A DNA stretch of 64,000 bases, from contig NZ_LQBL01000029.1 in assembly GCF_001483745.1 (NCBI RefSeq), positions 1 through 64,000 on the forward strand, written 5' to 3'. Each line of letters begins with the position of its first letter. The stretch's first letter is position 1. Below are positions 14,680-30,810 of the stretch, one piece after another. The notes under the pieces are model-generated. The model did not search any database, was not told the origin of the DNA, and worked only from the letters and a program-made list of their open reading frames with translations. The stretch comes from Serinicoccus chungangensis (lineage in GTDB: Bacteria > Actinomycetota > Actinomycetes > Actinomycetales > Dermatophilaceae). The position numbers were made by a program, and so were the translations under genes.

Positions 14680-18351
<3,672 letters not shown>

Positions 18352-18428: not shown

Positions 18429-19454
18429 TCAGGCCGGTATCTCTCCCGATCCTCGCCGCACGAGTCGCGTCGGGAGATCGGTCACCGTCGCCGGATCGTC
18501 CCACCCGGCCAACCGGGCGACGAAGCGCTGGGCGGCCAGGGCGCCGATGCGGTCCGTGTCCTGGACGACACAACTGACCCCCGGCACGATGAGGTCGGCC
18601 ATCTCCAGGTCGTCGAAGCCGATAAGCGCCACGTCGTGCTGCCGTCCGCGCTGCTGCAATGCGCGGATGGTACCCACGCAGATAGTGTTGCGCGCGGCGA
18701 GCAACGCGGTGGGTGGCTCGGATCCGTCGAGCAGTTCTAGCGTGGCCCGGAGCGCCTGCTCCTCGGTGCGGAGGTCGGTGAGCTCGGTGCAGCCGGTGAC
18801 GCCCCCCGCCACCTGCCGGAAGCCGTCGCGCCGTTCCTGCATGGTCGGCAGCGGCTCCAGATCGCCGAGGAAGGCGATGCGGCGGTGCCCGTGGTCCCAG
18901 AGCTGCCGAGTGGCGGTGACCGCACCGCCGACGTTGTCGCTGCGGACCACGTCGGCGGTGATCCCTCTGGGCAGCCGGTCGACGAAGACCACGGGGAGGC
19001 CGCGGGCGCGCTCGGGTGCCAGGTGGCTGTGGTCGTCGCGGCTCGTCGTGAGGATGAGGCCGTCCACCCGGCGCTGGAGGAAGGCGTTGATCCGGCTGAG
19101 CTCGGTGGCGGGCTCGTCGTCGCTGCTGGCGGCGAAGGTCACCATGCCGTGCTCGTTGGCCACCCGCTCCACGGCCGCGTGCACCTTGCTGTCGAAGGCG
19201 TTGCCCACGCTCGAGAGCAGCAGACCGAGGGTATTAGTCCGACTATTGGCCCGCTTGAGCATCGCCGCCCGCTCGTCGAGCTGGTAGTGGAGAGAGCTCG
19301 CCGCGTGCAGGACGCGCTCGCGCATCGCCTCCGAAACATTGCGTTCACCGTTGACAACGCGAGAAACTGTCTTGAGTCCCACTCCGGCGAGGGCGGCCAC
19401 GTCCTTCATCGTGGGACGGGAGGTGGCGGCGGACTCGCCTGACAACGATGTCAC
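18429..19454 (-). CDS. LacI-family regulator of the fructan/fructose locus
   Basis: This repressor of about 341 residues has an N-terminal helix-turn-helix (TMKDVAALAGVGLKTVSRVVNG) and a periplasmic-binding-like sugar domain. The GTG at 19454 is preferred over an upstream ATG (19490) because AAGGAGAT lies just before it. It is divergent from a fructose-type ABC importer. A palindrome TGACAACGATGTCA overlaps its own start codon and a second lies 65 bp away, so it probably represses both itself and the importer until fructose or a phosphate derivative binds. The ligand is inference. Confidence 0.85.
   Translation of the reverse strand: MTSLSGESAATSRPTMKDVAALAGVGLKTVSRVVNGERNVSEAMRERVLHAASSLHYQLDERAAMLKRANSRTNTLGLLLSSVGNAFDSKVHAAVERVANEHGMVTFAASSDDEPATELSRINAFLQRRVDGLILTTSRDDHSHLAPERARGLPVVFVDRLPRGITADVVRSDNVGGAVTATRQLWDHGHRRIAFLGDLEPLPTMQERRDGFRQVAGGVTGCTELTDLRTEEQALRATLELLDGSEPPTALLAARNTICVGTIRALQQRGRQHDVALIGFDDLEMADLIVPGVSCVVQDTDRIGALAAQRFVARLAGWDDPATVTDLPTRLVRRGSGEIPA
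19440..19453. promoter_or_regulatory. LacI-type operator O1 over the regulator start codon
   Basis: TGACAACGATGTCA has TGACA/TGTCA arms around a central ACGA and overlaps the GTG start. It resembles O2 at 19519-19532, which argues for the same protein binding both. Confidence 0.65.
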
Positions 19455-19518
19455 GATTTGATCTCCTTGTGGCTCGGGTGGGTTGACCATAGCGAAGACA
19501 TGTGGCTTGACTGTCTCT

Positions 19519-19532
19519 TGACAACGTTGTCG
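19519..19532. promoter_or_regulatory. LacI-type operator O2 upstream of the fructose importer
   Basis: TGACAACGTTGTCG is a near-perfect palindrome with the central CG usual for LacI-family sites. It overlaps a TTGACA -35-like hexamer (19518-19523), so binding would block polymerase. A further half-site, TGACAACGC, lies at 19352-19360 inside the regulator gene. Confidence 0.7.
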
Positions 19533-19568
19533 GTCGTTGCCGGCAACCCGTATCGGGAGGACACCATC

Positions 19569-20666
19569 ATGCGCACGACAACGACCACGAGCCTGGCCCT
19601 GGCCCTCGGCCTATCCCTCACCCTGGCCGCCTGCGGCGACGACGCGAGCAGCACCAGCGCCAGCGGCGGAGACACCGCCGACACCTCCTCCGGGGAGGAG
19701 GTGGCGGTCTCGCTGATCGTCAAGACCACGACCAACCCCTTCTTCGTCGCGATGCAGGAGGGGGCCGAGGCGGCGGCTGAGGAGCACGGCGTCAAGCTCA
19801 CCCTGGCGGCCGGCACCGAGGACGGCGACGAGCAGACCCAGATCGAGGCGATCGAGAACGCCGTGGCCCGTGGCGACCAGGGCATCCTCATCACGCCGAA
19901 CGGCCCTGCTGTGGTCGACGCCATCGACCGTGCCCGGCAGGACGGCGTCTACGTGATCGCTCTCGACACCCCGCCGGACCCGGCCGATGCCGTGGACATC
20001 ACCTTTGCTACCGACAACCGTCTTGCCGGTCAGCTCATCGGTGAGTGGACCGCTGGCCAGCTCGACGGGGAGAAGGCCACGATCGCCCTCCTGGACCTCT
20101 TCGACGACAAGATCGTCTCGGTCGACTACAACCGCGACCAGGGATTCCTCGAAGGAATGGGCATCGACGTCGCCGACCCCAACACCAACGGCGACGAGGA
20201 GGCGACCGGCGAGTACAGCGGCGGTGAGTACGAGATCGTCGGCAACGAGGCCAGTGACGGCGCCGAGGACGGCGGCCGCACCGCGATGGAGAACCTGCTG
20301 GCCAAGAACTCCGAGATCAATGTCGTCTACACCATCAACGAGCCGGCTGCTTACGGCGCCGCCCAGGCCCTCGAAGCCGCAGGGATGTCGATGGACGACG
20401 TGCTGATCGTGTCGATCGACGGCGGGTGCGCCGGGGTCGAGAACGTCAAGGACGGGCTGATCGACGCCACCAGCCAGCAGTACCCGGTGAAGATGGCCGA
20501 GCTCGGAGTCGAAGCGATCGTCACCCTCGTCCGGGACGGCACCGCGCCGGAGACCTCCGAGGGCCTGGACTTCTTCAACACCGGCGTGGAGCTGGTCACC
20601 GATGCTCCCGTGGAAGGGGTCGAGTCCATCGACGCCGAAGCCGCGGCCGACATCTGCTGGGGCTGA
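19569..20666 (+). CDS. Sugar ABC importer, substrate-binding lipoprotein (fructose type)
   Basis: This 365-residue protein has a lipoprotein signal peptide with lipobox LAAC (Cys near 22) and an acidic Ser-rich linker, then a periplasmic-binding fold of the ribose/fructose class (segments IVKTTTNPFF, GILITPNGPAVVDAIDRA, YTINEPAAYGAAQAL). Such proteins of the FrcB group bind fructose. A GGGAGG ribosome binding site precedes the ATG. It is the first gene of an importer operon controlled by O2 and followed by an exo-fructosidase, which supports fructose as ligand. Confidence 0.85.
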   Translation: MRTTTTTSLALALGLSLTLAACGDDASSTSASGGDTADTSSGEEVAVSLIVKTTTNPFFVAMQEGAEAAAEEHGVKLTLAAGTEDGDEQTQIEAIENAVARGDQGILITPNGPAVVDAIDRARQDGVYVIALDTPPDPADAVDITFATDNRLAGQLIGEWTAGQLDGEKATIALLDLFDDKIVSVDYNRDQGFLEGMGIDVADPNTNGDEEATGEYSGGEYEIVGNEASDGAEDGGRTAMENLLAKNSEINVVYTINEPAAYGAAQALEAAGMSMDDVLIVSIDGGCAGVENVKDGLIDATSQQYPVKMAELGVEAIVTLVRDGTAPETSEGLDFFNTGVELVTDAPVEGVESIDAEAAADICWG

Positions 20667-20671
20667 GGCGC

Positions 20672-21736
20672 ATGACTGGAGACACGGTTGCCGCCGGCGA
20701 CGCCGCCGGGGCTGGTCCCGGCGGCCCGTCAGCTCACGACACGGCGGCGCAGTTCCTCGATCGGCGGACGCCTCTCCAGCGCGCTCGTGGCCTGTTGCAC
20801 AAGTACCCGGCGCTCTCGCCGGCGCTGGTGCTACTGATCTCGGTGATCGTCTTCGGCTCGCTGAACGACCGGTTCCTGAACCCGACGAACCTGTCCCTGA
20901 TCACCCAGCAGGTGGCCGTCGTCGGCACGTTGGCCCTCGCACAGACCCTGATCATCCTCACCGCAGGCATCGACCTGTCGGTGGGCGCAGCCATGGTGCT
21001 GTCCTCGATGGTGATGGCCCAGGTGGCTGCCAACCAGGGGGCTCCCGCTGTGCTCGCCCTCGGGATCGGGCTGCTGGTCGGCGTCGGGACGGGAGCGCTC
21101 AACGGGGTGCTCGTCACTCGGCTCAAGCTGCCGCCCTTCATCACGACCCTGGGCACCCTCAACGTTTTCACGGCGCTCGCGCTGCTCTACTCCGGAGGCT
21201 CGACGGTGCGCGGCGGGGAGATGCCGAGCCTGCTGCCCTGGACCGGACTCTCCTTCGAGCTCGCCGGGATCCGGGTCAGCACCGGAGTCCTGGTGATGAT
21301 GCTGCTCTACACCCTTATCGCGGTGGCCCTGACGCGCACCGCCTGGGGACGGCACGTGTACGCCGTCGGCGACGACAAGGAGGCCGCGCGCCTGGTCGGG
21401 ATCTCCCCGCGGCGCGTGCTCCTGTCCGTATACGTCGTGGCCGGGGCCATCATCGCGGCGGCCGCGTGGATCCAGATCGGTCGGGCCAACGCCGCCAGTC
21501 CCAACATCGTGGGCGATCTCAACCTGGACTCCATCACGGCCGTGGTCATCGGGGGCACCAGCCTGTTCGGGGGTCGGGGCACGGTTTGGGGCAGCCTGCT
21601 CGGCGCGCTCATCGTCGGCGTGTTCCGCAACGGCCTCTCGCTGGCCGGGTTGGACGTGCTCTACCAGACGCTCGCCGTCGGCCTGCTCGTGCTCGTCGCC
21701 GTCGCGCTGGACCAGTGGATCAGAAAGGCACCGTGA
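20672..21736 (+). CDS. Sugar ABC importer, permease (fructose/ribose type)
   Basis: This 354-residue permease has about nine to ten hydrophobic segments and the conserved GIDLSVGAAMVLSSM motif of the ribose/fructose (RbsC/FrcC) family, with EAARLVGI as coupling region. It starts 5 nt after the binding-protein gene; its TGA overlaps the start of the ATPase. It forms the channel for the sugar delivered by the lipoprotein. Confidence 0.87.
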   Translation: MTGDTVAAGDAAGAGPGGPSAHDTAAQFLDRRTPLQRARGLLHKYPALSPALVLLISVIVFGSLNDRFLNPTNLSLITQQVAVVGTLALAQTLIILTAGIDLSVGAAMVLSSMVMAQVAANQGAPAVLALGIGLLVGVGTGALNGVLVTRLKLPPFITTLGTLNVFTALALLYSGGSTVRGGEMPSLLPWTGLSFELAGIRVSTGVLVMMLLYTLIAVALTRTAWGRHVYAVGDDKEAARLVGISPRRVLLSVYVVAGAIIAAAAWIQIGRANAASPNIVGDLNLDSITAVVIGGTSLFGGRGTVWGSLLGALIVGVFRNGLSLAGLDVLYQTLAVGLLVLVAVALDQWIRKAP

Positions 21737-22524
21737 TGAGTGAGCAGCAGCATGACTCCACCCCCGTCCTGCAGGCGAACGGGCTGGTCAAGGCCTTCGG
21801 CCGGGTCGTCGGGCTCGATGGTTGCGACCTGGAGCTCTACCCCGGCGAGGTGCTCGCCGTCATCGGCGACAACGGCGCCGGCAAGTCCACCCTCATCAAA
21901 TGTCTGACCGGGGCTGAGATCCCGGACGCCGGTCGGCTCCAGGTGCACGGCAAGGAGGTGCGCTTCACGTCCCCGCAGTCCGCGCGTGACGTCGGCATCG
22001 AGACGGTGTATCAGACCCTGGCGGTGGCCCCGTCGCTAGACATCGCGGCGAACCTCTTCCTGGGCCGGGAGGAGCGCCGGGCCGGGCCCCTCGGGTCGGT
22101 CCTGCGGATGATGGACCGGGCCGGGATGCGGGACAAGGCGCGGCGGGAGCTGACCGCACTGGGGATCTCGACCCTCCAGGACGTCACGGTGCCGGTGGAG
22201 AACCTCTCCGGCGGCCAACGGCAGGCGGTGGCGGTAGCCCGCGCCGCCGCCTTCGGCTCCAAGGTGGTGATCCTGGACGAGCCCACGGCGGCGCTGGGCG
22301 TGCGTGAGTCCAAGCAGGTGCTCGGGCTGATCGACACGCTGCGCTCGCGAGGCATACCGGTGATCCTCATCAGCCACAACATGCCCCAGGTCTTCGAGAT
22401 CGCGGACCGGATCCACGTCCAGCGGTTGGGGCGCCGAGCCGCGGTAATCACCCCGCAGTCGCACTCCATGACCGACGCGGTGGCCATCATGACCGGCGCG
22501 AGCGCCGGCGACAAAGCCGCGTAG
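21736..22524 (+). CDS. Sugar ABC importer, ATP-binding protein (single-domain, FrcA type)
   Basis: This 262-residue protein has a single ATPase domain, unlike the double-domain RbsA type, as is typical for FrcA. It has Walker A GDNGAGKSTLIK, signature LSGGQRQAV and Walker B VVILDEPTAAL. The ATG at 21736 overlaps the permease stop; a GTG one codon earlier is an alternative. It is the last gene of the importer, followed by a strong terminator hairpin. Confidence 0.88.
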   Translation: MSEQQHDSTPVLQANGLVKAFGRVVGLDGCDLELYPGEVLAVIGDNGAGKSTLIKCLTGAEIPDAGRLQVHGKEVRFTSPQSARDVGIETVYQTLAVAPSLDIAANLFLGREERRAGPLGSVLRMMDRAGMRDKARRELTALGISTLQDVTVPVENLSGGQRQAVAVARAAAFGSKVVILDEPTAALGVRESKQVLGLIDTLRSRGIPVILISHNMPQVFEIADRIHVQRLGRRAAVITPQSHSMTDAVAIMTGASAGDKAA

Positions 22525-22530
22525 CACCAC

Positions 22531-22559
22531 GTCCGCCCCGGCCCCGTGCCGGGGCGGAC
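22531..22559 (+). terminator. Hairpin between importer operon and GH32 gene
   Basis: A perfect 12-bp stem, GTCCGCCCCGGC / GCCGGGGCGGAC, with a 5-nt loop lies 6 nt after the ATPase stop. Read-through could still supply the GH32 gene, which has only 32 bp of further upstream DNA. Confidence 0.7.
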
Positions 22560-22591
22560 CTGTATCCATCCCCCAGGACAAAGGAGTCCTC

Positions 22592-25285
22592 ATGTCTGGT
22601 CCGTCCACCCGCGCCTCCCGGATCGCGTCGACCCGTCGCCGCCTGATCGCGGCCGCGACCCTCGTCCTCGCCCCCGCCGTGACGCTCGCGCCGTCGGTGG
22701 CAGCCGTCGAGCCCCCGGTCGGCGAGGAGCCGCACCGCCCCCTGGTCCACTACACGCCCGAGCAGAACTGGATGAACGACCCCAACGGACTGGTCTACCG
22801 GGACGGCACCTACCACCTCTACTACCAGCACAACCCCGAGGGCGACGTCTGGGGCAACATGTCGTGGGGGCACGCCACCAGCACCGACCTCGTGACCTGG
22901 ACCGAGCAGCCGCTGGCCATCCCGCAGACGCGGGACGCGACCGGACGCAGCATCGAGGACATCTTCTCCGGCTCGGTCGTGGTGGATCACGGCAACACCA
23001 GCGGCCTGGGCGACGGCGGCGAGGCACCGATGGTCGCGGTCTACACCAGCGCCTACACCGATGCCCACCCCACGCTCGCGGGCCGCCAGGCCCAATCGTT
23101 GGCCTACTCGGTGGACGGCGGGACTACGTGGACCAAGTATGCCGGGAACCCGGTCCTGGACCGGGAGTCGCCGAACTTCCGGGACCCGAAGGTGTTCCGC
23201 TACACGCCGGAGGACGGCGGTGAGCCTTACTGGGTCATGGTGGTGGTCGAGGCGATCGACAAGGAGGTCCTCATCTACCGCTCCGAGAACCTCATCGACT
23301 GGACCTACCTGTCGACCTTCGGTCCGGTCGGCGCCACCGGGGGCATGTGGGAGGTGCCCGACCTGGTGGAGCTGCCGGTGGACGGGGACACCGACGACAC
23401 TCGCTGGGTGATGCTGGTCTCGATGAATCCCGGGGCGGTCGCGGGGGGCTCCGGGGTGCAGTACTTCGTCGGTGACTTCGACGGGACGACGTTCACCCCG
23501 GAGCAGCTGCCCGACCCGGGGACGACCCCGGCGCCGGGTCGGGTCGTGGCCGACTTCGAGGCAGAGACCTGGGCGCAGACGGGGTGGGACGTCACCGTCG
23601 ACCCGGCGGTGGAGTCCGGCCCCTTCGGTGCCGCCCCGCAACCGGGCGCCTGGCCCGGTCAGCAAACCGTGAGCGGCTACCTCGGGGAGCGCCTGCTCAA
23701 CAGCTTCGTGGACGGCGACGCCGCCGTCGGGACTGCCGAGTCACCGGAGTTCACCATCGACCAGCCCTATCTCAACGTGCTGCTCGGCGGTGGCCGCCAC
23801 GCGCGCATCCCGGGTGGGCAGCTGGGCAACGAGCCGCCGTCCGGAGCGCTGCTGTGGGACGGTTTCGAGGGCGACGACACCGGGGGCAGCTCCCTGGCGG
23901 ACCTGGGTTGGACCGGCGAGGGCGATCTCGCGGCGTCCGACAGCCCGAGCGCGGCTGGAGGCGAGTATGCCTTGGGTCAGCGGCGGATCAACACCTGGGA
24001 GGGTGGGCCGCACGGCGACGCCAACACGGGGTCGCTGACGTCCGGGCCGTTCACGGTGTCTGCGGACCACCTCAGCATGCTCGTGGGAGGCGGCCGTCAG
24101 GACGGCGACCCGCTGCTGCAGGTGCAGCTGCTCATCGACGGTGAGGTCGCCCGGTCCCTGACCGGCCCCGAGGACGGCGCGATGCAGTGGCGCTCCTGGG
24201 ACGTCGCCGACCTCGTGGGGCAGCAGGCGCAGCTCCGGGTCGTGGACGAGGAGACCGAGGGGTGGGGCCACCTGACCCTCGACCACGTCGTCCTGGGCGA
24301 CGAGCCGGCCCGCCCACGCAGCGACGAGACGACCGTGAACCTCGTGGTGGACGGCGACGTGGTGCGCAGCGCCACCGGTCAGGACAGCGAGGAGCTGGAC
24401 TGGGTGAGCTGGGACCTGGCCGACCTCCAGGGGCAGCGGGCCTCCGTGCGGGTGGTGGACAACCACCGCGGCGGTTGGGGGCACGTGCTCGTGGACGACG
24501 TCGTGCTGTCAGGGCAGCCGCAACCGCGAGGTCTGGAGCGACACCAGTGGTTGGACTGGGGCCAGGACTTCTACGCCTCCATCTCCTTCGCCGACATGCC
24601 GGACGACCGGACGGTCCTCATCGGCTGGATGAACAACTGGCTCTACGGCACGGCCATACCGACCTCGCCGTGGCGGTCGGCGATGAGCCTGCCGCGCGAG
24701 CTGCGGCTGGTCCGGGAGGACGGGCAGGTGGAGCTGCGTCAGGAGATCGTGGCGGAGGTCGAATCGCTGCAGGCTCGTCGTGACTCGGTCCGCTGCGGCG
24801 GGCTCCGGGTCCGGGACGGACGCACCGTGGCTCTGGACCCGCGGGCGGAGGCCTATACGATGCAGGTCCGGCTCAGGCAGCGGGACGCCCGTCGCTCCTC
24901 GGTCGTGGTGCAGGCCGACGCGGCCGGCACCGGGACCGAGATCGTCGTGGACTGGGAGCAGGAGCGGCTCACGGTGGACCGCAGCACCTCCGGTGAGGTG
25001 GACTTCCACCCGACCTTCGCCGGGTCCGCCTCGGCGCCGATCCAGGTGCGTCGCGGCGCGGTGGACCTGACGGTCTATGTCGACCGGTCTTCGGTGGAGG
25101 TCGTCGTCGGCGACGGCGAACGGGTCCTGACCAGCCAGGTCTTCCCACGCCTGGGGCAGGACGGCGTGCACCTGGGCAGCGAGGGAGGAACGACGACGGT
25201 GTCGCGGCTGCGGGTGAGGCCGCTGGAGCAGGTCGAGACCCGACCGGTGCGCGGGCGGGAGTGCCGTGCCAGCGGTCGCGGGTGA
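22592..25285 (+). CDS. Secreted GH32 beta-fructosidase (levanase/inulinase type) with large insertion
   Basis: This 897-residue enzyme has a signal peptide (to about residue 38) and the GH32 catalytic triad: nucleophile Asp63 in WMNDPNGL, stabilising Asp198 in FRDPKVF, and acid/base Glu254 in WEVPDL, where the usual Cys after Glu is Val. The propeller is interrupted from about residue 317 to 648 by about 330 residues containing two related beta-sandwich-like halves, then resumes with RHQWLDWGQDFYAS and ends in the GH32 C-terminal sandwich. It should release fructose from levan, inulin or sucrose outside the cell. AAAGGAG precedes the ATG. It follows the fructose importer, which fits its product. 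Confidence 0.88.
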   Translation: MSGPSTRASRIASTRRRLIAAATLVLAPAVTLAPSVAAVEPPVGEEPHRPLVHYTPEQNWMNDPNGLVYRDGTYHLYYQHNPEGDVWGNMSWGHATSTDLVTWTEQPLAIPQTRDATGRSIEDIFSGSVVVDHGNTSGLGDGGEAPMVAVYTSAYTDAHPTLAGRQAQSLAYSVDGGTTWTKYAGNPVLDRESPNFRDPKVFRYTPEDGGEPYWVMVVVEAIDKEVLIYRSENLIDWTYLSTFGPVGATGGMWEVPDLVELPVDGDTDDTRWVMLVSMNPGAVAGGSGVQYFVGDFDGTTFTPEQLPDPGTTPAPGRVVADFEAETWAQTGWDVTVDPAVESGPFGAAPQPGAWPGQQTVSGYLGERLLNSFVDGDAAVGTAESPEFTIDQPYLNVLLGGGRHARIPGGQLGNEPPSGALLWDGFEGDDTGGSSLADLGWTGEGDLAASDSPSAAGGEYALGQRRINTWEGGPHGDANTGSLTSGPFTVSADHLSMLVGGGRQDGDPLLQVQLLIDGEVARSLTGPEDGAMQWRSWDVADLVGQQAQLRVVDEETEGWGHLTLDHVVLGDEPARPRSDETTVNLVVDGDVVRSATGQDSEELDWVSWDLADLQGQRASVRVVDNHRGGWGHVLVDDVVLSGQPQPRGLERHQWLDWGQDFYASISFADMPDDRTVLIGWMNNWLYGTAIPTSPWRSAMSLPRELRLVREDGQVELRQEIVAEVESLQARRDSVRCGGLRVRDGRTVALDPRAEAYTMQVRLRQRDARRSSVVVQADAAGTGTEIVVDWEQERLTVDRSTSGEVDFHPTFAGSASAPIQVRRGAVDLTVYVDRSSVEVVVGDGERVLTSQVFPRLGQDGVHLGSEGGTTTVSRLRVRPLEQVETRPVRGRECRASGRG

Positions 25286-25303
25286 GCTGCCAGGTCCGCC
25301 CGG

Positions 25304-26986
25304 TCAGCCGGTCCTGGTGGGCTCGGCCACCCGCAGCGGGGTGACGGAGATCTCGCGCAGCTCCACGGTGCCTCGCTCGGCATACGCGACCGGGGTGCTC
25401 GGGCGTGAGTCGCCGTAGCTGAGCATGCTCAGCGCAGCCTGGCCCTGGTTGACGAAGGCCTCGACCGAGGCGACGTCGACGACGACGTCCAGCTCGACCT
25501 GGCCGTCGACCGGGGCGACGTCCGCGGTGCTGATCTCCTGGTAGGTCGGGGGCATCTGGGCGGCGGCGGCGTCGGCGTCCCGCGCGACGAAGGCCTGGCC
25601 TGCCGCGAAGTCGTAGCCAACGGTGCTGAACGTGCCGTCCTCGTGCTCGATCCGGAGCCGGAGCTCGGCGTCCGGCTCGGGTGCGGAGGCCACGACGCGC
25701 AGCCGGTAGGCGTCCGCCGCGGGGGTGCCGAGCGTGGTGGAGCCGCCGGCGTCCAGGCTCACCGCGGGAGCACGTTGGGCCGGTCCCTCCAGACCGGCCA
25801 GGCTGTCCACCGGCATCGAGGTGAGCATCGGCCCGTCCTCGGTCCCGCGCAGGCTCAGTTCCCGGACCACGCTCGCCGAGCCGCCGTGCCACTCCTCAGT
25901 GGGCAGAGACCCGGCATACGCCCAGTTGTTGAGCCAGCCGATGCTGTAGCGGCCGGCCAGCTGCTCCTGCGGCGTGAGCCGCGGATCGCTCCAGGTGACG
26001 GCGGCGTAGTAGTCCGGACCGCGGTCCAGCCACTGGTGCCGCTCGTCGTCCGGAGCGAAGCTCTGCCCGTCCCAGGTGCCGGTCCAGTAGGCGGTGCCGG
26101 TGGTCATGCCGTCGGCTGCCCCGTTGGCGCCGGTGAGCAGCACCCAGCGCACGTCCTCCTGATTCCCGTCCACCGCCATGGGGAAGAGGTCGGGGCATTC
26201 GAGCACCCCGAGGCCCGGCGCGCTGAAGTCGGAGGCATACGTCCAGTCGCGCAGGTTCGCGGAGGTGTAGAAGCCGATCCGGTCACCCTCGGCGAGCGCC
26301 ATCACCCACTGGTCGCGCGCGTCGTCCCAGATCACCCGTGGGTCTCGCCAGGCGTCGACCCCCGGGTTGTCCATGACCGGGTTGCCCTCAAAGGACTCGA
26401 AGGTGAACCCGCCGTCGCGGGAGACGAAGAGCGACTGCCGCTGCACCCCGTCGACCTGCTGGGTCACTAGGGCCACCACGGCACCCGCACCGAAACCGGC
26501 CGTGTCGTGCTGGTCCACGACCGCGGTGCCGGTCCAGATGTCCCCCAGACCGTTCTGGTATTTCCCGATCGCGACGCCCTGGTCGACCCAGTGGACCAGG
26601 TCGGTGGAGGTCACGTGGTACCACTCGGTGCCGTTGCCCTCCGGGTAGTCGGCGTTGTAGAGGTAGTAGTAGTGCCACTGCCCGTCGAGGAAGAACGGCC
26701 GCTGCGGGTCGTTCATCCATCGTTGTTCGGGGGTGAGATGCACCGCGGGTCGGTATGCCGCGCTGCCGTCCGCGCGGCGGAAGGGATCGGGGGCAGGGTC
26801 CTCGGTCCGCTGCTCGTCGTCCGGAGCTGTGGTCACGGCGTTCTCGGCCGGGCCGGCCACCCGGTCATCTCCGGGTCCCAAGATATGCGGTCGCAGGAGA
26901 GCGACGGCGGCCACGGCGAGCAGCAGGCCGGTCACGATGATGAGCCTGGCTCTGGTCCGTCGTGGCTGGAGGGTCTTCTCGGGCAT
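25304..26986 (-). CDS. Membrane-anchored GH32 beta-fructosidase
   Basis: This 560-residue enzyme has a single N-terminal transmembrane helix (about residues 14-33) without a cleavage site, so it is probably tethered on the outer face of the membrane. The triad segments are WMNDPQ near residue 91, WRDPRV and LECPDLF, and a normal C-terminal beta-sandwich follows. It has no insertion, unlike the convergent GH32 18 bp away. The ATG at 26986 has a GAGGAGAGG ribosome binding site. It lies downstream of the levansucrase gene beyond a strong hairpin. The role is likely exo-hydrolysis of levan or its oligosaccharides near the importer. Confidence 0.87.
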   Translation of the reverse strand: MPEKTLQPRRTRARLIIVTGLLLAVAAVALLRPHILGPGDDRVAGPAENAVTTAPDDEQRTEDPAPDPFRRADGSAAYRPAVHLTPEQRWMNDPQRPFFLDGQWHYYYLYNADYPEGNGTEWYHVTSTDLVHWVDQGVAIGKYQNGLGDIWTGTAVVDQHDTAGFGAGAVVALVTQQVDGVQRQSLFVSRDGGFTFESFEGNPVMDNPGVDAWRDPRVIWDDARDQWVMALAEGDRIGFYTSANLRDWTYASDFSAPGLGVLECPDLFPMAVDGNQEDVRWVLLTGANGAADGMTTGTAYWTGTWDGQSFAPDDERHQWLDRGPDYYAAVTWSDPRLTPQEQLAGRYSIGWLNNWAYAGSLPTEEWHGGSASVVRELSLRGTEDGPMLTSMPVDSLAGLEGPAQRAPAVSLDAGGSTTLGTPAADAYRLRVVASAPEPDAELRLRIEHEDGTFSTVGYDFAAGQAFVARDADAAAAQMPPTYQEISTADVAPVDGQVELDVVVDVASVEAFVNQGQAALSMLSYGDSRPSTPVAYAERGTVELREISVTPLRVAEPTRTG

Positions 26987-27003
26987 CCATTCCTCTCCTC
27001 GGC

Positions 27004-27043
27004 ACGGGTCGGCCCGGTGGCCTGAGCCACCGGGCCGACCCGT
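27004..27043 (-). terminator. Terminator of the levansucrase gene
   Basis: A perfect 18-bp stem with a 4-nt loop (CTGA), left arm 27004-27021 and right arm 27026-27043, lies between the levansucrase stop and the next gene. It is one of the longest perfect hairpins in the window. Confidence 0.75.
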
Positions 27044-27066
27044 CCTGCGTGGTGACTGCTAGCTGT

Positions 27067-29586
27067 TCACTCCAGGGTGCGCAGCTCGGTCAGGACGGTG
27101 TCCTCGATGGCGCCGTCACCACCGAGAACCTCCACGTCCCAGGGGCCGAGGGCCTCCAGCGCGTCCCAGGTCTCCAGCGGCACGGCAGTCGGCTCCACGA
27201 GCAGCAACGGGGTGTCCTCGGAGGCCGCCCGGGCCGATCCGGCCAGAGCGTCCGGCCAATTCTGGCCACTCGCGACGTAGGCGGTGTCGGACTCGGCGAT
27301 GTCCGCCGACAACGCGGCTGCGGTGCCGTAGCGGTTGCGTCCCGAGACGCGGTTGACCGAGGCGTAGCTCTCCAGCGTCTCCTCGACGGTCTCGTCGACC
27401 GCGCCCTCGCCTCCGACGAGGACGATCTCGGAGACGCCCAGCTCGGTCAGCGCGTCGGCGGTCGCCGTCGGCACCCCGTCGGACTTCACCAGCAGGACCG
27501 GGGCACCCTCGGAGCCCGCCCGCGCCGAGGCGGCGAGCGCGTCGGGAAAGGTCTGCCCGGTCGCGACGTAGGCGACGTCGACCTCGCCGAACTCCGCCGC
27601 CAGCAGGGCTGCGGTCTCCCACCGCCCGGTGCCCGCGATCCGACGCGTGGGAGCGCCGGCCGCATCCGCGATGTCACCGACCACGTCGTCCTCGATGGCA
27701 CCGTCTCCGCCGAGCACCACCACCTGGCCCGGGTTGAGCCTGTCCAGCTCGCGCAGGGTGGAGTATGGGGCGCTGTCATCCCGCGTCAGCAGGACCGGGG
27801 CGTCGATGCTACCGGCTCGTGCCGCCGCCGCCAAGGCGTCGGGGAAGTTGTCCCCCGTCGCGACGAAGACGGTGCCGACACCCGGGTCGTAGACCTGGGA
27901 CAGCGCGACCGCGGTGCTGTATCGCGTGGTGCCGAAGATGCGACCGACGTAGATCGGCACGGTGGTCGAGAGGTTGGCCGGGATGTCTGCCCAGCCGCCC
28001 AGCCCGCCGTCGCCGTAGGACCGATCCACGGTGGAGGTGTCGCCCTCCAGGTCGATCCGCACCGTCGGGCCGAGCGTCCCACCGCGGATGAAGTCGTCGG
28101 TGGTGCCGATCGTGTCGATGAAGGACTGCACCAGACCGCCGGGCATGATGTAGTGCGAGTACGCCTGGAAGGCGCCCGGGTGCTGGTTGAAGTCGGGGTC
28201 GTAGGGGAAGCCCTGGAGGAAGTTGAGGTTCGTCGGGTTCCCCAGGGCCAGACCGGACCCGGCGTTCAGCGGCTGGAAGTCGCTGCGGATGCCGTCACCC
28301 ACGAAGCCGTAGACGCCCTCTGGCCCGTCGATCCCCGCCGCGTAGGTGTTGCGGTGGCTGATCGTGAACAGGTAGGTCTTGCCGTCCTTGAAGACGAACT
28401 GCGGCCGCTCGGTCTGGTCGGTGACACAGTTGGCCGACAGGACCGGGGGCAGGAACTCCCACTCGGTGAGGTCCTCGTTGGTGGCGCGAGCGAGTCCCAC
28501 GTTGCCGATCTGGTAGGTCGCGCCGGAGGCGTTGACCTCGTCGACGGTCTCGGCGTACGGGTCACCCTCCTGGTAACCGAGGTCCTCCTGGGTGCACCGG
28601 GCCTCCTCCCGCGGCATGGCCGTGTTGCCCTCGAAGAGCATGTAGGTCTCGCCCGGGTGGTCCGGGTGCTCGAAGGTCCACGGGTCGCGGAAGTTGAAGA
28701 ACTCGTTCTGCTCCCCGTCCTGGTAGTACTCCCCGTCGGCCTGCAGCAGGTCGTAGACGTTGTCCAGGCCCTTGAAGTAGACGCCGTTCTCGTCCGCGTG
28801 GATCGTGCCCTCGCTCAGGGCCAGCCGCGGGTCGTAGGGCTTGATGTTGGAGCCGTCCGGGTTGCGGTAGAACGCGACGTCGGTGAAGAAGATCTTGATC
28901 TTGCCGTCCTCGAAGATCCGCGCCGATCCGGACCACTCGGTCTGGTGGCTGAAGGACTGGTCCTCGAAGATCTGTCCGGTGAGGCCGTCCTCGAAGACGA
29001 GTCCTCCGTAGGTCCAGCCGCCGTCCTCGGGGCGCTCGTCCCAGGGGATGTCGGCGGGGCGGTAGAAGTAGCCGATCCGCGCGTACTGGTGCCTCTCGTC
29101 GAAGCCGAGGTCCCGGTCGGCTACCAGGGAGAAGATGACCTCCCAGCCGTTGATGGAGTACTGGTTGGCGTCCTCGTCGGTGAGCGGCCAGGTGTCCCAC
29201 ACCCAGACTTGCTCGTCGGACATGTCGGGGAAGTCCTGCGGCACCGTCGGCATGGTGACCTCGGTCGGCATGGAGTTCTCTCGCGAGCCCGCGTCCGGAT
29301 CAGACATCCGGGTGATCTGGCGGGCGTCGGCGCGCGTCCACTTCGAGGTGAAGTCCGCGTCCGGAGCGTAGGTCTCCTGGGTGTGCGTCGAGGGCTCGGG
29401 CCCCGGCTGCAGGTCGAAGTCGTCGGCGACGTCCACCGCCGAGACCGGTGCCGCCGGCACCGCGCTCGGTGCCGGCTCCGCTACTGCTGCCGACGTCCCC
29501 AGCAGGGTCGTCGTGACGAGCGCCGCCGCGGTGGCGACGCCCAGCGCGAGGCGGGAACGCCGCCTCGCGGGATGGGTTGTTCTCAT
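27067..29586 (-). CDS. GH68 levansucrase with three C-terminal cell-wall-binding (CWB2) repeats
   Basis: This 839-residue protein is predicted to make levan from sucrose on the cell surface. After a signal peptide (to about residue 37) comes a GH68 domain with nucleophile Asp131 in WDTWP, the WSGSARIF motif, stabiliser Asp301 in FRDPWTFE and acid/base Glu393 in ERPQF. Residues about 547-839 are three CWB2 repeats (GTTRYST, GRWETA and GRNRYGTA openings, each followed by FPDAL/WPDAL). The ATG at 29586 fits the AGGTGGAG ribosome binding site; a GTG three codons upstream is possible. Levansucrases are normally freely secreted or held by other anchors, so this fusion is unusual. Confidence 0.88.
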   Translation of the reverse strand: MRTTHPARRRSRLALGVATAAALVTTTLLGTSAAVAEPAPSAVPAAPVSAVDVADDFDLQPGPEPSTHTQETYAPDADFTSKWTRADARQITRMSDPDAGSRENSMPTEVTMPTVPQDFPDMSDEQVWVWDTWPLTDEDANQYSINGWEVIFSLVADRDLGFDERHQYARIGYFYRPADIPWDERPEDGGWTYGGLVFEDGLTGQIFEDQSFSHQTEWSGSARIFEDGKIKIFFTDVAFYRNPDGSNIKPYDPRLALSEGTIHADENGVYFKGLDNVYDLLQADGEYYQDGEQNEFFNFRDPWTFEHPDHPGETYMLFEGNTAMPREEARCTQEDLGYQEGDPYAETVDEVNASGATYQIGNVGLARATNEDLTEWEFLPPVLSANCVTDQTERPQFVFKDGKTYLFTISHRNTYAAGIDGPEGVYGFVGDGIRSDFQPLNAGSGLALGNPTNLNFLQGFPYDPDFNQHPGAFQAYSHYIMPGGLVQSFIDTIGTTDDFIRGGTLGPTVRIDLEGDTSTVDRSYGDGGLGGWADIPANLSTTVPIYVGRIFGTTRYSTAVALSQVYDPGVGTVFVATGDNFPDALAAAARAGSIDAPVLLTRDDSAPYSTLRELDRLNPGQVVVLGGDGAIEDDVVGDIADAAGAPTRRIAGTGRWETAALLAAEFGEVDVAYVATGQTFPDALAASARAGSEGAPVLLVKSDGVPTATADALTELGVSEIVLVGGEGAVDETVEETLESYASVNRVSGRNRYGTAAALSADIAESDTAYVASGQNWPDALAGSARAASEDTPLLLVEPTAVPLETWDALEALGPWDVEVLGGDGAIEDTVLTELRTLE

Positions 29587-29690
29587 GTGCTCCACCTGTG
29601 CTCTCCGTGAGTTGCGTTTCGGTCCGGTGCGAAGACTCCGACGGTCACGGTGGCGGAGCGATTTTCTCCATCATGGCCGAGACGATGCGG

Positions 29691-29704
29691 TTCCCGCAAG
29701 GGAA
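29691..29704. promoter_or_regulatory. Inverted repeat upstream of levansucrase
   Basis: TTCCC-GCAA-GGGAA lies about 105 bp before the levansucrase start and may be an operator or a leader hairpin. It does not match the TGACAACG operators of the adjacent LacI regulator, so control may differ. Confidence 0.3.
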
Positions 29705-29746
29705 AGTTGGTGGAGAGGGCCTCTTCTCGGCGCGAGGGCGAGTCAA

Positions 29747-29762
29747 CCACCCTTTGGGGTGG
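29747..29762 (-). terminator. Small hairpin after the ArsA-like gene
   Basis: CCACCC-TTTG-GGGTGG lies 14 nt beyond the stop of the minus-strand ATPase gene. Confidence 0.45.
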
Positions 29763-29775
29763 ATCGAGCACAGCC

Positions 29776-30810
29776 CTACGACGGGAGCCGGTCCAGGTAC
29801 TGTGCCAGATGCAGCAGCGCCTGCTCCCCGACGAGCTCCCCCGGGAGAAGCGGCACCTCGACGAGCGGCAGGTCCGGGAGCGAGGCGCCTACCTGCTCGA
29901 CATATCCCTGCTCGACCCGGTGCCGGTCGGCCAGCAGCGGACCGGCGTCGGCGGGGGAGCGCTTGTTGACCACGAGCGCGCCGACGCCCATGCCGGCCCG
30001 GGTGAGCTGCTCGTGCAGCTCGACGGTCTCCAGGACGGGCAGGCGCTCGGCGGCGAGCACGATGACGAAGGCGCTGCGCGCCGGGTCCTGCAGCACCGAT
30101 CGCAGCTGGGCGAAGCGGGCCTGCCGCCGGTCCAGGATGCGGCGGATCTCCGCGTCGCGGCGTGAGCGGCGGTCGGGCGTCGCGGTCTCGCCGCGACCCC
30201 GCGAGCTGCCCAGGACGTCGGCGGCGGCCCGCTCCCCGGCGTCCTGGCGCGGCCGGCCCTGCAGCCCGCGCAGGGCCGCCCCGAAGCGCGCCGAGCGGTC
30301 CTGGCGCCGCAGCAGCCCCTCGGTCCACGCCTGCATGAGCTCGGGCAGCGCGACGAGCCGGGAGGTGTGCCCGGAGGGTGCGGTGTCGAAGACGACGAGC
30401 TCGTCCGGGTGACGGCCCTCCAGCACCTCGGCGATCCGCTCGAGCACGGCGGCCTCGTGGGTGCCCGGGGCGTCGCGGGCCAGCTCCAGGTGCCGGCTGA
30501 CCTCCCCCTGCAGGTGCTCAGGCATGAGGCGGTGCATGGTCTCGCGCACGGCCCGCAGGTGCTCGTCGGTGGTGCGGGCCGGGTCGATCTCGAGGCCGCG
30601 CAGCAGCGGGGCGAGCTCGACGGTCTCGTCGCCCACGGGCCGCCCCCACAGGTGGCCCAGGTTGTGCGCCGGGTCGGTCGAGACGACGAGTACCCGGCGC
30701 CCGCCGCGGGCGAGGGCGAGACCGAGCGCGGAGGCGACCGCGGTCTTGCCGACCCCGCCCTTGCCGCCGACGAAGAGGACCTCGCGCCCGTCCGCCAGCC
30801 CCCTCAGCAC
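29776..30810 (-). CDS. ArsA/Get3-family ATPase
   Basis: This 344-residue soluble ATPase has the deviant Walker A GGKGGVGKT (residues about 15-23), the switch I segment STDPAHNLGHLWG, and DTAPSGHTSRL, the switch II-like motif of ArsA and Get3. It lacks the tandem duplication of arsenite-pump ArsA and its cysteines, and no ars genes are near, so arsenite export is unlikely. The GTG start at 30810 lies 13 nt after the stop of a small CC-tail protein that itself follows cstA, suggesting a conserved cassette in which the ATPase helps assemble or regulate the transporter. That role is inference. Confidence 0.78.
   Translation of the reverse strand: MLRGLADGREVLFVGGKGGVGKTAVASALGLALARGGRRVLVVSTDPAHNLGHLWGRPVGDETVELAPLLRGLEIDPARTTDEHLRAVRETMHRLMPEHLQGEVSRHLELARDAPGTHEAAVLERIAEVLEGRHPDELVVFDTAPSGHTSRLVALPELMQAWTEGLLRRQDRSARFGAALRGLQGRPRQDAGERAAADVLGSSRGRGETATPDRRSRRDAEIRRILDRRQARFAQLRSVLQDPARSAFVIVLAAERLPVLETVELHEQLTRAGMGVGALVVNKRSPADAGPLLADRHRVEQGYVEQVGASLPDLPLVEVPLLPGELVGEQALLHLAQYLDRLPS

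Follow-up and report, generated by a model that had tools for sequence, protein, structure and literature searches.

Fructansucrases held at the cell wall are known, with attachment described through GW repeats, LPXTG motifs or a PGST region (PMC2270844). In the view of the same authors, the C-terminal region of IslA, the inulosucrase of Leuconostoc citreum, was possibly acquired for cell attachment (PMC2270844). Clusters for making and using levan are likewise known from actinobacteria, and Cellulosimicrobium cellulans MP1 forms levan that is later lost (PMC8325422). Here, we analyzed a 64,000-nucleotide stretch of Serinicoccus chungangensis DNA (contig NZ_LQBL01000029.1, positions 1 to 64,000; hereafter, the window), which stems from a draft assembly of 3.56 Mb in 33 contigs. 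Positions 18429-29586 carry a seven-gene fructan cassette whose GH68 fructansucrase ends in three CWB2 repeats; in the set examined, CWB2 as the putative wall tag of a GH68 enzyme is what is new. We consider it probable that this is an acquired cassette that makes and uses a levan-type fructan, and that its GH68 was later tagged with the CWB2 repeats of the host lineage.

The CWB2 repeats (164.5 bits in Pfam) fill the last ~290 residues of the 839-residue GH68 frame, as the first-pass annotation had described, and the PDB matches of this tail are Cwp6 and Cwp8. Three tandem repeats and a secretion signal, the latter judged from hydropathy and by eye, give the protein the make-up of a CWB2 wall protein. 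The search of GH68 enzymes for C-terminal CWB2 repeats that the annotation had called for found this combination in only one of 68 distinct full-length genes, the window's own; a recount by the catalytic part also gave 68. These genes came from 186 genomes of the family, samples of 396 genomes from the order and 396 from the phylum, one contig scan (12 loci), and four further family searches (398, 197, 47, and 181 genomes), sets that overlap; of 77 distinct GH68 frames, 8 partial ones and 1 at a contig edge were set aside. Loci that the window's GH68 did not hit at 1e-10 (L008-L011, L045-L047, L051, L087-L090, and L120-L123) lay outside the count, among them four that exceed the Pfam cut-off (L008, L010, L051, and L087). 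Since the survey was made without Bacillota genomes, the uniqueness of the combination is limited to the set examined; the CWB2 profile derives from the six repeats within the window itself, and very distant repeats may escape it. GH68 genes were also found in 78 plasmid records, all below 60% identity, and their tails are outside the CWB2 count. Four other GH68 genes have tails of more than 30 residues. The longest of these (L075, 289 residues) is unrelated to CWB2, has an Ig-like match below the cut-off, and is an independent C-terminal extension. No natural GH68-CWB2 protein is described in the accessible text of the open-access literature searched (PMC5817068, PMC8056022, PMC12445088), in agreement with the earlier remark that no levansucrase anchored in this way had been described.

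The rarity of the pairing (a single gene among the 68) and the draft state of the assembly could point to an assembly artefact in which GH68 was fused with an unrelated CWB2 gene, but the junction lies well within a contig of 127.6 kb and the frame is open, and we regard such an artefact as very improbable. A collapsed repeat is also unlikely, because the CWB2 part is just 68% identical at the DNA level to its nearest in-genome copy. The genome contains 42 CWB2 repeats in 14 frames, three in each: the GH68 and 13 other proteins, which include proteases and proteins of SpoIID, amidase, and 5'-nucleotidase type. CWB2 is present in all 31 genus genomes, although three of these have just 1, 3, and 6 repeats. 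The nearest kin of the GH68 triplet is that of a 1794-residue protease frame (61%; the next by score is at 46%), and the two are reciprocal best matches within this genome. As the triplet is nearest to that of an in-genome protease, transfer of the enzyme would have come first and tagging in the host lineage second.

A tail without a wall-holding role, on an enzyme that is released or clipped and acts in the medium, would fit with the predicted secreted subtilase that adjoins the cassette and could clip GH68, and with the unrelated long tail of one other GH68, which implies that tails come and go. All three repeats are, however, intact and over the cut-off, the triplet has stayed whole although its identity to the nearest in-genome kin is down to 61%, and three is the usual repeat number in CWB2 proteins (PMC5817068, PMC8056022). 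We therefore find this alternative improbable.

The seven genes form two converging groups (Table 1). The rightward group comprises the binding protein, permease, and single-domain ATPase of an ATP-binding cassette (ABC) importer and a secreted GH32, with lacI pointing away from them; the leftward group, separate from and convergent with the first, comprises GH68 and then a second GH32 with a predicted membrane anchor. The gene block described in the first-pass annotation is real and in place, all of its domain types being confirmed by Pfam.

Table 1 Features of the fructan cassette in the window (positions are those of the window)
Feature	Position	Strand	Basis or remark
LacI-family regulator	18429..19454	-	Pfam LacI and Peripla_BP (run on 18429-19490); start in open reading frame list 19490, probable GTG start 19454
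Operator 1, TGACAACGATGTCA	19440..19453		Counterpart in L012, L013, L022, L097
Operator 2, TGACAACGTTGTCG	19519..19532		79 bp from operator 1
Sugar-binding protein of ABC importer	19569..20666	+	Peripla_BP_4; 70-72% identical in Agromyces
ABC permease	20672..21736	+	BPD_transp_2; start set by script
Single-domain ABC ATPase	21736..22524	+	ABC_tran; start set by script
Secreted GH32, exo-inulinase-like, with catalytic-domain insert	22592..25285	+	Pfam GH32 N and C; best PDB match exo-inulinase 8i12
GH32 with predicted N-terminal membrane anchor, endolevanase-like	25304..26986	-	Pfam GH32 N and C; hydrophobic N-terminal segment
Strong hairpin between GH68 and GH32 genes, 18-bp stem	27004..27043	-	Stretch 26986-27066: -52.1 kcal/mol, z -6.36
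GH68 fructansucrase, signal-like N-terminus, C-terminal wall-binding repeats	27067..29586	-	839 aa, ATG 29586
CWB2 repeat 3	27094..27351	-	Repeat search
CWB2 repeat 2	27382..27642	-	Repeat search
CWB2 repeat 1	27682..27942	-	Repeat search

The GH68 domain scores 469.2 bits against a Pfam cut-off of 27. The stretches VWVWDTWPL, NFRDPWTF, and DQTERPQ, which start at residues 127, 298, and 390, contain all three of what we take to be the GH68 catalytic motifs (WD.W, RDP, and TERP). His411 presumably falls at the position of Arg360 in SacB. The nearest solved enzymes are the beta-fructofuranosidase 3vsr (897 bits) and then the levansucrase 1w18 (615 bits). The former is the enzyme of Microbacterium saccharophilum K-1, called lactosucrose-producing in a reference list (PMC7432509). 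A Vibrio natriegens enzyme modelled on 3vsr gave up to 85 g/L of levan-type product with much hydrolysis, whereas smaller amounts of levan are given elsewhere in the same paper (PMC7432509). The window's enzyme is likely a levansucrase, as judged from its sequence; of the earlier claim to that name, the GH68 domain and motifs stood, whereas the closest solved relative is named a beta-fructofuranosidase, and levan is a candidate for the main product.

Both GH32 enzymes, annotated before as one secreted and one membrane-tethered, possess the GH32 N and C domains, and the tether is predicted from a hydrophobic segment. The best PDB match of the tethered enzyme is the endolevanase LevB1 (9h8i, 385 bits), followed by levan fructotransferases; with both GH32 domains and an endolevanase as its nearest solved enzyme, it can be called a putative endolevanase. 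Such a GH32 stands beside GH68 in 16/19 related loci. Of 16 relatives, 12 share the hydrophobic segment and linker of the window's enzyme, a lipobox was seen by eye in 3 of the 16, and L017 has neither clearly. Hydropathy alone cannot separate an anchor from a cleaved signal, and the tether is thus only a prediction, although one favoured by the recurrence of surface attachment by two means (hydrophobic segment and lipobox). In L092-L094, from the window's own family, the endo-acting GH32 has the lipobox, read by eye, in place of the membrane anchor. The intergenic hairpin is a candidate terminator, attenuator, or RNA stabiliser. The insert of the secreted GH32 (residues ~313-645) is conserved in L012, L013, and L022. 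By eye, this insert seems itself to be split by a second similar module; a self-BLAST gave no such match. The secreted GH32 enzymes of these three Agromyces loci carry ~90 additional C-terminal residues that are absent from the window's.

The cassette could also serve to scavenge sucrose and fructans without any levan store, GH68 acting mainly as a wall-held invertase and oligosaccharide maker that keeps its sugars near the importer while the GH32 enzymes eat the fructans of plants or neighbours. The lactosucrose-producing closest solved relative and the presumed match of His411 to the SacB Arg360 position fit such a use. For the V. natriegens enzyme built on that template, the catalytic efficiency was higher for hydrolysis than for transfer, but it is the same enzyme that reached the high yield of levan-type product (PMC7432509). 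Against scavenging also stand the endolevanase and levan fructotransferase matches of the tethered GH32, its recurrence beside GH68, and levan formation by C. cellulans MP1, which has a levansucrase-levanase operon (PMC8325422). We view scavenging as possible but rather doubtful.

The make-and-use cassette that we favour builds on what was observed: which genes and domains are present, what they resemble, where the operators lie, where GH68 falls in the tree, and which in-genome CWB2 repeats are its nearest kin. The secreted GH68 would split sucrose to yield fructo-oligosaccharides and levan, and the CWB2 triplet would keep the enzyme bound to the cell wall, probably along with some of the product. 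In the direction of flow that we infer, the membrane-anchored endolevanase-like GH32 would cut the polymer near the cell, the secreted exo-acting GH32 would release fructose, and the ABC importer would take the fructose up. The LacI regulator may repress the importer through its two operators and, by read-through, the exo-acting GH32, while the unit of GH68 and the endo-acting GH32 would lie outside LacI control in the window. The GH68 would have acquired its triplet from the host lineage's pool of wall-binding proteins. A levan coat or store held at the wall and recycled as fructose had been proposed before: the gene set for fructan synthesis, breakdown, and uptake and the wall-binding tail bear this out in part, whereas levan as the main product and fructose as the imported sugar remain candidates.

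The two palindromic operators (4 strand-matches versus 0.41 expected) both sit in the gap between lacI and the importer, and no other site in the assembly matches with one mismatch or fewer. Their spacing of 79 bp compares with 78, 78, 78, and 80 bp in L012, L013, L022, and L097, a kept distance of 78-80 bp that would suit looping. The lacI start is probably the GTG at 19454, which overlaps operator 1, because the same overlap was read by eye in the Agromyces loci L012, L013, and L022. No operator, even at 4 mismatches, was found in 29500-29800 (before GH68), 26980-27070 (between GH68 and GH32), or 22500-22600 (before the secreted GH32). In Agromyces, the same operator precedes the exo-acting GH32 too (L012, L013, and L022), and in L013 and L022 it also lies between GH68 and the endo-acting GH32, which are divergent there. 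After removal of one doubled row, 67 distinct GH68 genes had enough upstream sequence; 12 of them have the operator nearby and 55, the window's included, do not. Since it has no operator, the GH68-GH32 unit probably answers to another signal or is constitutive. The operators of the self-contained LacI circuit proposed earlier are therefore real, but not every transcription unit of the cassette has one, the GH68-GH32 unit being without. A levan store under a single LacI switch was also considered and is weakened by these operator positions.

FrcA is, we assume, a single-domain ATPase, and the importer matches the FrcABC-type make-up by Pfam: a binding protein, one permease, and a single-domain ATPase. 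None of its proteins reaches the cut-off of an NCBIfam equivalog. Accordingly, an importer of this domain type is present as annotated, whereas the label "fructose" rests on domain type only. The binding protein is a probable lipoprotein: visual inspection of its N-terminus suggests a lipoprotein signal (LAAC).

In the GH68 tree (49 rows), the window falls within an 11-row clade (support 100/98). Its named rows belong to Agromyces and a Microbacterium metagenome-assembled genome; the remaining rows come from one family, which we take to be Microbacteriaceae. The relatives in the tree are Actinomycetota, and none of the six rows that stem from the window's own family (L002-L007) belongs to the clade. 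The tree was built without L021, L023, L043, L044, L048-L050, L052-L055, and L086 (partial, distant, or duplicate) and without the later collected L099-L123; long-branch warnings concern L085, L042, and others, none within the window's clade. The window's GH68 is also the only one among the 31 genus genomes. Horizontal gain of the cassette is likely, because its GH68 lies within a clade whose named rows are Microbacteriaceae and is the only one in the genus set. The cassette is common to other Actinobacteria and not unique to the window: all seven gene types are found in L013 (Agromyces humatus, with the ATPase cut by the locus end) and L097, while L022 ends before an ATPase and the L012 contig ends at the expected place of the tethered GH32. 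In the other 15/19 related loci no importer set was observed, in part owing to short flanks. L017, from a record named Vibrio sp. J1-1, carries an actinobacterial-type GH68 and GH32, by cross-phylum transfer or in a mislabelled record. Base composition was dropped as proof of transfer, being too weak: GC content at third codon positions is 0.86-0.94 in the cassette and 0.93-0.98 in 10 of 11 other stretches, the eleventh being at 0.73 with its frame unconfirmed. A subtilase with a PA domain and three CWB2 repeats (Pfam) occupies 14680-18351, directly adjoining the cassette.

Several points weigh against the acquired, wall-tagged levan cassette. We know of no CWB2 ligand in Actinobacteria, and the quality of the AlphaFold prediction for the full-length GH68-CWB2 protein was too low for it to be of use (mean predicted local distance difference test score 42.2). 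The pairing of the window with L012 in the tree is weakly supported (80/96), and base composition lends weak support to a foreign origin. The missing GH68 operator is not special to the window, and its loss there is not established, because many relatives are also without it, including L016, L017, and L098, in which GH68 likewise lies directly ahead of GH32 on one strand. His at the SacB Arg360 position, presumed here for His411, is a change that has been linked to oligosaccharides instead of levan, with exceptions (PMC7432509).

More tentatively, the transferred GH68 may have been given a host surface address tag, turning a released levan maker into a private, wall-held one outside LacI control, with the polymer kept on the cell and no longer a public good. 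An exopolysaccharide is shared or private according to the location of its synthase, and the untagged GH68 of the relatives examined and the tagged one of the window form a natural pair for testing this. If true, CWB2 would be a portable wall address in Actinobacteria.

Among described systems, a levansucrase held at the surface by wall-binding motifs was reportedly made by Mesnage in 1999 as an artificial fusion, with SLH instead of CWB2. In nature, IslA resembles the window's enzyme in being a GH68 with an added C-terminal region, which was shown to hold it on the cell; that region consists of GW-type repeats, and no importer or GH32 cassette is mentioned in the accessible text (PMC2270844). 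Inu and Lev of Lactobacillus reuteri 121 are wall-held fructansucrases, as is proposed for the window's GH68, but through an LPXTG motif and not through non-covalent repeats (PMC2270844). The Cwp proteins of C. difficile share the architecture of a functional protein joined to three CWB2 repeats, with enzymes other than GH68 and with PSII as the reported ligand (PMC5817068, PMC8056022). The sacC1-levB-sacC2-ls operon of C. cellulans MP1 clusters GH68 with GH32 levanases in an actinobacterium, as in the window; its levansucrase has 616 residues, and CWB2, an importer, and LacI are not mentioned in the accessible text (PMC8325422). The Agromyces cassette (L012, L013, and L022) has the same gene types and the same operator as the window, but its GH68 is without CWB2 and, in L013 and L022, is divergent from the GH32 gene with an operator between the two.

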